Shown one piece after another: positions 50,497-52,268 of a stretch of DNA of 64,000 nt. Both the position numbers and the translations under genes were made by a program. Where the stretch lies: assembly GCA_958431225.1 (NCBI GenBank), contig OY288107.1, positions 1,143,501 through 1,207,500 on the forward strand, written 5' to 3'. The notes beneath the pieces are model-generated. The model saw nothing but the letters and a program-made list of their open reading frames with translations, was not told the origin of the DNA and searched no databases. The stretch's first letter is position 1, and the number at the start of each line of letters is the position of its first letter. The stretch is from an uncultured Alphaproteobacteria bacterium. Its GTDB lineage: Bacteria; Pseudomonadota; Alphaproteobacteria; Puniceispirillales; UBA1172.

Positions 50497-50952
50497 TTAT
50501 TCGTGGTGGTAGGGATGTTTTGCCAGAATCATCTCGGCGCGGTAAAGCTGTTCCGCCAGCATCGCCCGCACCAATAAATGCGGCCAGGTCGCACTGCCAA
50601 AAGCGAGGGTCAAATCAGCACGCGCCAACACCGCCGCGCTATGCCCATCCGCCCCGCCAATGGCAAAAATCGCCTCGCGCACGCCATCATCGCGCCAATC
50701 CTTAATGTGCGCCGCCAATGCCCGGGAGGTGAGGTTTTTGCCCTTGGCATCGAGTGCTACCAACTTGCTTTGGGCGGGGAGGATGTCCAAAATTTTCTGC
50801 CCCTCTGCGCTGATGCGCTTGGCTTTTTCCGTGTGCGGGGCGGTGAATTCTAGCAGCCTACCCTGATGCGGTAGGCGGGCAAAATAATCGCGCACCAGCA
50901 CCGCTTCGGGCTTGGTGCCAATTTTTCCAATGGCGGCGATGGTGATGCGCAT
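50497..50952 (-). CDS. rlmH: 23S rRNA (pseudouridine1915-N3)-methyltransferase RlmH
   Basis: A SPOUT methyltransferase of 151 residues that methylates pseudouridine 1915 in helix 69. IAAIGKI at the N-terminus, LDAKGKNLTSRALA, the SAM loop AIGGADGHS and the C-terminal AEQLYRAEMILAKHPYHHE-like ending (HPYHHE) identify it. I start at ATG 50952; the longer frame to 51021 runs inside rsfS. It follows rsfS by 25 bases. Confidence 0.95.
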   Translation of the reverse strand: MRITIAAIGKIGTKPEAVLVRDYFARLPHQGRLLEFTAPHTEKAKRISAEGQKILDILPAQSKLVALDAKGKNLTSRALAAHIKDWRDDGVREAIFAIGGADGHSAAVLARADLTLAFGSATWPHLLVRAMLAEQLYRAEMILAKHPYHHE

Positions 50953-50977: not shown

Positions 50978-51373
50978 TTAAGGGGCGGTGGTTGTGCGTC
51001 CTTGCCCGGTCTCATGGTCAAGCCACATTTTTTCTAGCTGATAAAACGCCCGCACTTCCGGGCGGAATAGGTGGATGATGACATCCCCGGCATCAATCAA
51101 AATCCAATCGCCCTGCGCCGTGCCTTCAGCGCCGCCCCCAATATTATTTTTAATGCTATTGTTTTTGTTGTGGGCTTTGATGGCTTTGTTGAGATGTTCC
51201 GCCATAGACACCAACTGCCGCGACGAACTCCCCGAAGCAATAACCATATAATCGGCAATTGATGATTTCCCCGCAAGCGGAATCGCAATAAGGTCCGTCG
51301 CCTTATCGGCATCCAATGAAGACATAATAATATCAAGCAGGCGGTCGCTTGCAGCGTGATGATGTGCGGAAAT
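50978..51373 (-). CDS. rsfS: Ribosomal silencing factor RsfS, probable ATT start
   Basis: RsfS binds L14 and blocks subunit joining in starvation. The core GKSSIADYMVIASGSSSRQL and the later GDWILIDAGDVIIHLF are standard. The only in-frame ATG (51325) removes the family helix that precedes LDADKATDL. Upstream the frame stays open, and a perfect AAAGGAG (51381-51387) sits seven bases before an ATT codon at 51373, with no ATG, GTG or TTG nearby in that frame. The ATT start gives 131 residues and restores the helix. The start is inferred; the gene is not in doubt. Confidence 0.9.
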   Translation of the reverse strand: MSAHHHAASDRLLDIIMSSLDADKATDLIAIPLAGKSSIADYMVIASGSSSRQLVSMAEHLNKAIKAHNKNNSIKNNIGGGAEGTAQGDWILIDAGDVIIHLFRPEVRAFYQLEKMWLDHETGQGRTTTAP

Positions 51374-51380
51374 TGTAAAA

Positions 51381-51387
51381 CTCCTTT
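51381..51387 (-). promoter_or_regulatory. Ribosome binding site supporting an ATT start of rsfS
   Basis: AAAGGAG on the minus strand, seven bases before ATT 51373. It is too far (56 bases) from the ATG at 51325 to serve it, so it decides in favour of the longer reading. Confidence 0.6.
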
Positions 51388-51453
51388 CGCGGTTTTCTGG
51401 CTCCCTTTAGCAGATATATTAAGCGAAAATTATGTTTCTGCCAATAATAAATA

Positions 51454-51903
51454 TCAGTCGCGGGCGTATTTTATGAAAGGCGTTTTTGTGCCAATCTTGT
51501 CGTATAAGCGCCGCGCCGGTGCGTTGAAATCTTGGGTCAGCCAATAAACGCCCTTCGCCCCGATGGCATCGGCGGAGGTATAGATTTGCGCGATGAGTTG
51601 CCGTGCCACCCCATGTTTGCGGTAAGGCGGGGCAACGAATAAATCTTGTAGATAACAGATTTTTTCTTTTTGCCAAAGATGCAGATGAAAAATGCAATGC
51701 ACGATTCCTGCGGCATTTTCAGGCGCATCGCCCCCGACAAAAGCGATATAGGCTTCGCAATCATGCGCATCATCAATCAGGCGGGTAAAGGTTAAATCAA
51801 AAATCTCTTGGTCGCGCGCGGTTTCATAAAAAGCCAGATATTGCGTCCATAACCCTGCCCATGCGTCTTGGTGCGAAGCGGTTAATTTTTCTAGCGTAAT
51901 CAT
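51454..51903 (-). CDS. GNAT family N-acetyltransferase
   Basis: A 149-residue acetyltransferase of the GNAT fold. The acetyl-CoA motif FVAPPYRKHGVARQLI lies near residues 86-101, with YWLTQDFNAPARRLYDKIG as the usual C-terminal helix and strand. The overall pattern resembles diamine or small-molecule acetyltransferases, but the acceptor is unknown. I start at ATG 51903, overlapping the cupin gene stop (ATGA). With the cupin gene it is inserted between nadD and rsfS, which are usually adjacent. Confidence 0.87.
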   Translation of the reverse strand: MITLEKLTASHQDAWAGLWTQYLAFYETARDQEIFDLTFTRLIDDAHDCEAYIAFVGGDAPENAAGIVHCIFHLHLWQKEKICYLQDLFVAPPYRKHGVARQLIAQIYTSADAIGAKGVYWLTQDFNAPARRLYDKIGTKTPFIKYARD

Positions 51904-52268
51904 GGCGTTTGCGCCCCGTGCGCCCCGCCTTCGGGTCCGTAAAAAATCACCCATGTTTCTAGGCTTGCGCCAAAATCAAAAAAACGATGTTGCATCCCCG
52001 CCGGCACAAATAAAAAATCCCCCGCCGCAAAAGGGATAATTTCATCCCCCATTTGAAACTTGCCCGACCCGCGAATGACGACATAACATTCATCGCGGCT
52101 GTGGGGTTGTTGCAGGTCTTCATTTTGCGGGATGTAGAGTTCAACCTGCAATTCCCCGCGCAAAAAACCAATATAAAATCGCTTGCCATCAGGGGTCGGA
52201 ATCTGCGCGCGCATATCCGCCGGGCGCAAATGTTTAGCATCAGTCGCATGGGTCATATCAGCCTCCAT
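51900..52268 (-). CDS. Cupin domain protein
   Basis: A 122-residue single cupin. Both cupin motifs are present: HSRDECYVVIRGSGKF and PFAAGDFLFVPAGMQHRFFDF, with candidate metal ligands His, Glu and His. Substrate is unknown. It overlaps the GNAT gene by four bases, so the two probably act together, perhaps on a small metabolite, but nothing further can be said from sequence. Confidence 0.83.
   Translation of the reverse strand: MEADMTHATDAKHLRPADMRAQIPTPDGKRFYIGFLRGELQVELYIPQNEDLQQPHSRDECYVVIRGSGKFQMGDEIIPFAAGDFLFVPAGMQHRFFDFGASLETWVIFYGPEGGAHGAQTP

Follow-up and report, generated by a model that had tools for sequence, protein, structure and literature searches.

To our knowledge, conserved noncanonical start codons have been described for only a handful of bacterial genes, namely infC, pcnB, sigR, ccpN, and cvfC1. 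IF3 represses translation from starts other than ATG, GTG, and TTG, and infC is thereby autoregulated (PMC5472188); its AUU, AUC, or AUA starts are under such control in E. coli, Streptomyces, and S. aureus (PMC5472188, PMC13009471). RsfS orthologues bind uL14 and prevent joining of the ribosomal subunits (PMC3400551, PMC13246957). IF3-fidelity alleles are reported to raise output from noncanonical starts 3- to 15-fold (PMC5472188). Subunit joining is blocked jointly by IF3 and RsfS, and levels of the two factors increase in E. coli without RimM (PMC13246957). The start codon of E. coli rsfS (ybeB) is UUG (PMC10917681, PMC3400551). In its main text, a Caulobacter profiling study gives 0.7% CTG and 0.25% other near-cognate starts (PMC4117421). 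We found nothing on rsfS in the passages retrieved from that main text or from that of a Ruegeria proteogenomics study (PMC3305630), the supplements of both being excluded. Our search of the full-text literature likewise found no report of a noncanonical rsfS start; most subscription journals and supplements lay outside its scope, and an entry in a table remains possible.

Results

The rsfS frame and its predicted start

We analyzed a 64,000-nucleotide stretch of DNA (hereafter, the window) from an uncultured, SAR116-like alphaproteobacterium of the order Puniceispirillales, whose genome consists of one 2.33 Mb contig. The features around rsfS are as follows:

50497 to 50952, minus strand: rlmH, the next gene downstream of rsfS (PF02590, E 6.9e-42), with an ordinary ATG start
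50978 to 51373, minus strand: rsfS coding sequence from the predicted ATT start, an open frame of 131 codons plus stop
51323 to 51325, minus strand: first in-frame ATG of rsfS, within the first conserved helix, not regarded as the start
51371 to 51373, minus strand: predicted ATT start codon of rsfS (ATT, ATC, or ATA at the aligned place in families f1 to f3)
51381 to 51387, minus strand: Shine-Dalgarno (SD) site AAAGGAG of rsfS, with a 7-nt spacer, kept in relatives
51407 to 51409, minus strand: in-frame TAA, the upstream bound of the rsfS frame
51454 to 51954, minus strand: GNAT acetyltransferase gene upstream of rsfS (PF00583, E 4.9e-14)

When the minus strand was read directly, no in-frame ATG, GTG, or TTG was present from the TAA at 51409 to the ATG at 51325. 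The leader runs TAA AGG GAG CCA GAA AAC CGC GAA AGG AGT TTT ACA ATT TCC GCA CAT, and its SD site has a duplex energy of -8.5 kcal/mol against an assumed 16S 3' end. The ATG at 51325 lies 16 codons past the ATT, is directly preceded by the codons ATT ATT, and has no SD site (energy 0). This reading confirmed a first-pass annotation of the sequence, which had described a frame open upstream of the ATG, with AAAGGAG seven bases before an ATT and no ATG, GTG, or TTG between them.

The 131-aa product from the ATT meets the curated cutoffs for the RsfS family across the domain, both with PF02410 (E 3.7e-28; 98.1 bits against a cutoff of 21.6; residues 15 to 117, model positions 2 to 98) and with TIGR00090 (E 1.9e-28; 98.5 bits against a cutoff of 56.9; residues 13 to 117, model positions 2 to 99). 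A product begun at ATG 51325 would lack the first 4 to 5 model positions. Alignments to solved relatives begin, for example, at query residue 10 for 3ups and 28ye and at residue 12 for 30qz. That the window's RsfS binds uL14 and blocks subunit joining is presumed by analogy, these activities being known for orthologues only.

About 80 bases separate the end of the GNAT gene from the rsfS ATT, and promoter-like matches in this gap were at chance level only. No Rfam family was found in the rsfS region, apart from one sub-threshold chance match. The rsfS leader showed no stable secondary structure (z +1.03), giving no indication of an RNA switch at the start. As to the wider neighborhood, GNAT acetyltransferase and cupin genes (51454 to 52268, minus strand) separate nadD from rsfS in the window; the two genes are directly adjacent in Sinorhizobium (L279) and Rhizobium (L280).

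The chance expectation for AAAGGAG followed after 5 to 9 nucleotides by ATT is 0.49 occurrences per window, and 37 of 100 shuffles contained the motif. The motif is not significant in one genome alone, and the case for the start therefore rests on comparative evidence.

Conservation within the order

A near-cognate rsfS start (ATT, ATC, or ATA) behind an SD site was found in all 37 genomes from three families of the order (f1, f2, and f3). In the window's family, the aligned codon is ATT in all 12 genomes; it precedes the conserved core by 11 codons (17 in two genomes), and the energy of its SD site ranges from -7.5 to -8.7 kcal/mol. The start is ATT or ATC in a second family (22 genomes) and ATT, ATT, and ATA in the three genomes of a third. 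In four genomes of the window's family (L002 to L005), an in-frame stop sits between the SD site and the ATT, which makes a start further upstream impossible. A sequencing or assembly error turning ATG into ATT in the source genome would need just one base change and could account for a single genome; however, all 11 other family members, assembled separately, carry ATT at the same place. Because these independently assembled relatives share the codon, such an error is excluded in practice, and we give it negligible weight.

The fourth family, f4, has an rsfS ATG with a weak SD site in 12 of 12 genomes. SD energies are -6.4 to -9.2 kcal/mol for the near-cognate starts of f1 to f3, versus 0 to -4.0 kcal/mol for the ATG starts of f4. 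The genomes of f4 are AT rich (L030, L211, L212, L216 to L220, and L327 to L330), and in them infC still starts with ATA; with ATG on rsfS and ATA on infC, the family offers a natural contrast for judging what the codon does.

The first-pass annotation had proposed initiation at the ATT and had held that an ATG or GTG at another spacing in close relatives would count against it. Alignment of the start in close relatives revealed no such codon, and the proposal was upheld by conservation of both codon and SD site at the aligned position in genus, family, and order. On this comparative basis the rare codon ATT is well supported as the predicted rsfS start; no N-terminus has been measured.

Near-cognate starts across the Alphaproteobacteria

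We extended the comparison to 102 genomes: single representatives of 100 additional alphaproteobacterial families and two genomes of the order. The start was taken as the in-frame codon, among seven candidates, with the strongest SD site (-6.5 kcal/mol or lower, spacing 5 to 9) in a 36-codon search region, with frame-shift controls and rlmH as the control gene. A 60-codon region was abandoned because automatic calling then produced an excess of canonical hits by chance. Near-cognate starts were called in 40 genomes (ATA in 16, ATC in 11, CTG in 8, and ATT in 5), canonical starts in 7, and none in 55. The other two reading frames gave 8 near-cognate and 5 canonical calls and 2 and 1, respectively, and rlmH at the same loci (n = 75) gave 3 near-cognate and 9 canonical. 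Two rlmH genes (L175 and L026) lack any ATG, GTG, or TTG between the upstream in-frame stop and the tenth codon of the domain; these are possibly further noncanonical starts or assembly faults.

We also tabulated, with no codon set assumed, which in-frame rsfS codons follow strong SD sites. The P values from this test ignore relatedness. In the class sample, ATA was enriched 10-fold (P = 1.5e-10) and CTG 4-fold (P = 1.2e-4), with ATC enriched too; ATT was enriched 13-fold in the order (P = 4e-14) and CTG 12-fold in a mostly Rhodobacterales set (P = 2e-56). TCC, TCT, and GTC were enriched as well, as expected of codons flanking a conserved start. CTG is the called rsfS start in 69 of 75 genomes of the mostly Rhodobacterales set and in all 20 of a Ruegeria set.

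These data indicate that the predicted noncanonical start is not a peculiarity of one genome but recurs in alphaproteobacterial rsfS, on a scale that the first-pass annotation had not seen. It is widespread and not universal: no start of either kind with a strong SD site was called in about half of the one-per-family sample, and several lineages (f4 and small AT-rich genomes) have ATG, GTG, or TTG. Outside the class, rsfS starts with ATG or TTG in 18 of 18 sampled proteobacteria. Since E. coli rsfS uses UUG, a link to IF3 cannot hold generally in Proteobacteria. An RsfS tree implied 25 changes between near-cognate and canonical starts among 50 changes in all, figures that include tree and calling error; for example, L013 was automatically called CTG and has ATT at the conserved place. 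The tree (112 columns) is poorly resolved, and we used it only to note repeated changes, not to date their origin.

Evidence for translation of the N-terminal extension

Initiation at internal ATG, GTG, or TTG codons, here ATG 51325, would leave the upstream similarity untranslated or accidental. The Pfam score is nearly the same from either start (98.1 versus 96.5 bits), and canonical codons are what deposited rsfS annotations select. However, ATG 51325, which lacks an SD site, is not conserved, and in L008, L010, and at least 7 class-level loci no canonical codon occurs between the upstream stop and the tenth codon of the core. For 14 of the 40 families with near-cognate starts, a canonical codon is first met only 15 to 48 codons inside the conserved RsfS domain. 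Coding periodicity also extends over the N-terminal extension. Across 20 Ruegeria-like sequences, diversity at the three codon positions was 0.066, 0.034, and 0.161 from the CTG to the next ATG, versus 0.182, 0.129, and 0.194 upstream of the SD site, where periodicity is much weaker; this shift indicates that triplet periodicity starts at the CTG. A small second residue follows 78% of near-cognate rsfS starts, compared with a background of 47%, as expected of true N-termini from which Met is removed.

The annotated starts themselves count against internal initiation. In Sinorhizobium, two Rhizobium strains, and Qingshengfaniella (L279 to L282), the deposited starts are four mutually nonhomologous ATG or GTG codons with poor SD sites. 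Relative to an SD-backed CTG that is evident in all four records, two of these starts lie upstream, by 26 and 10 codons, and two downstream, by 9 and 26 codons. In S. meliloti CP090106, the CTG is at L279:1444. These records were found with an approximate Rhizobium-like RsfS probe that is not a database sequence, and only the records found were used. We therefore regard initiation solely at such internal codons as very improbable. Gene callers restricted to ATG, GTG, and TTG would leave rsfS misstarted or truncated in many alphaproteobacteria.

Two forms of RsfS, with a long product started at the near-cognate codon and a short product at a downstream canonical codon in a ratio set by IF3, are harder to dismiss and remain unlikely. 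Ruegeria-like genomes have a partly conserved ATG 18 to 20 codons past the CTG that could also be used, and L247 has an ATG with an SD energy of -6.2 kcal/mol. Against this, the next canonical codon in the window and most SAR116 relatives falls in the first conserved helix without an SD site, and in Rhodobacterales the downstream ATG is not conserved, with L096 lacking one altogether.

infC and IF3 in the same genomes

The infC gene of the source genome (G000; L273:1444), which lies outside the window, has an ATA start behind AAAGGAGAT (SD energy, -8.9 kcal/mol), and the encoded IF3 is intact, with both IF3_N and IF3_C domains. An ATA start of infC was found in all 39 examined genomes of the order. 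More broadly, infC starts mostly with ATA or ATC in the sampled alphaproteobacterial families (L249 to L278, L284 to L312, and L318 to L326) and with ATG or TTG in a few small AT-rich genomes. In a hand-picked set of 29 other families, all 15 with a near-cognate rsfS start also had a near-cognate infC start, and canonical infC starts (L290, L292, L303, L304, and probably L286) all occurred in genomes with a canonical-looking rsfS. Because the sample was picked by rsfS type, this concordance is only suggestive.

As judged from sequence alone, rsfS has the sequence-level properties of an IF3-discriminated start: a noncanonical codon, its conservation, a strong SD site, and an intact IF3 whose own gene has such a start. 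The comparative data suggest that rsfS production is under IF3 start-codon proofreading.

Discussion

We consider it likely that rsfS in the window is translated from the SD-placed ATT and that this start keeps RsfS synthesis low and inversely tied to free IF3; the IF3 part is inferred, without expression data. In the mechanism we propose, the strong SD site would position the ATT as the start and offset the weak codon, allowing useful expression. IF3 would destabilize 30S initiation complexes on ATT, ATC, ATA, or CTG, and it is because of this destabilization that we infer low, inversely IF3-dependent synthesis. RsfS would act on the 50S subunit via uL14 and IF3 on the 30S subunit, both holding the subunits apart. 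With ATT on rsfS and ATA on infC, both factors would be produced whenever too little IF3 is available for the 30S subunits present, and such feedback could keep anti-association capacity constant. The IF3 sensitivity of rsfS, its direction, and its physiological use are all inferred, with no experiment behind them. The link is plausible, and its support is circumstantial: infC starts with ATA in the source genome, and several large clades vary only among IF3-disfavored codons. From this drift of the rsfS codon among IF3-disfavored codons, we infer selection for a proofread start.

The main rival to an IF3-responsive start is that the near-cognate codon is real and merely fixes RsfS at a low, constant level, as in E. 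coli pcnB, with no response to the level of IF3. We regard this as a live possibility. Noncanonical starts generally cut yield in S. aureus reporters (PMC13009471), and the GTC start of sigR is IF3 repressed, yet no change in response to stress could be demonstrated (PMC5472188); a strong SD site with a weak codon is also compatible with level tuning. However, a low level could be reached by an ATG with a weaker SD site, as in f4, and within large clades the start interchanges among ATT, ATC, ATA, and CTG and seldom reverts to ATG, which fits selection for IF3 sensitivity.

Returning to the IF3-responsive start, we offer a broader proposal tentatively and with less than even confidence. RsfS in much of the Alphaproteobacteria may belong to a translational regulon of IF3, with its codon selectively kept as AUU, AUC, AUA, or CUG, so that the 50S-side factor would be made when the 30S-side factor is short; together with self-regulated infC, this would form a homeostat for free subunits. 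If true, start-codon proofreading would serve as a sensor coupling both factors that keep the ribosomal subunits apart.

Clade-conserved noncanonical starts on which IF3 acts are already known from infC, pcnB, sigR, and ccpN; rsfS is unusual in the breadth of its distribution and as a target that mirrors IF3. The orthologue in E. coli, rsfS/ybeB, likewise has a minor start codon, but UUG is among the three canonical codons tolerated by IF3, unlike the window's ATT. E. coli pcnB, as cited in a later paper, is another gene besides infC on which an AUU start sets a limit (Binns and Masters 2002, cited in PMC13009471); it differs in encoding poly(A) polymerase and is described there as a translationally limited gene. 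The S. aureus genes ccpN (AUA) and cvfC1 (AUU), reported in 2026, resemble rsfS in having conserved starts and extended SD sites (PMC13009471), but these are Firmicute genes, one for a transcription repressor and the other for a small protein whose function is unknown. Streptomyces sigR combines a strong ribosome-binding site with a noncanonical, genus-conserved start, and its IF3 dependence, unlike that of rsfS, has been shown experimentally (PMC5472188). It uses GTC or GTT, encodes an oxidative stress sigma factor, and is confined to Streptomyces, whereas the rsfS start spans many families with a variable codon. Like rsfS, infC has a near-cognate start across large clades, a strong SD site, an IF3-disfavored codon, and a product that acts on subunit association. 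The two differ in that infC encodes the discriminating factor itself and is autoregulated, whereas rsfS would be an outside target, and they part in f4, where infC has ATA and rsfS has ATG.
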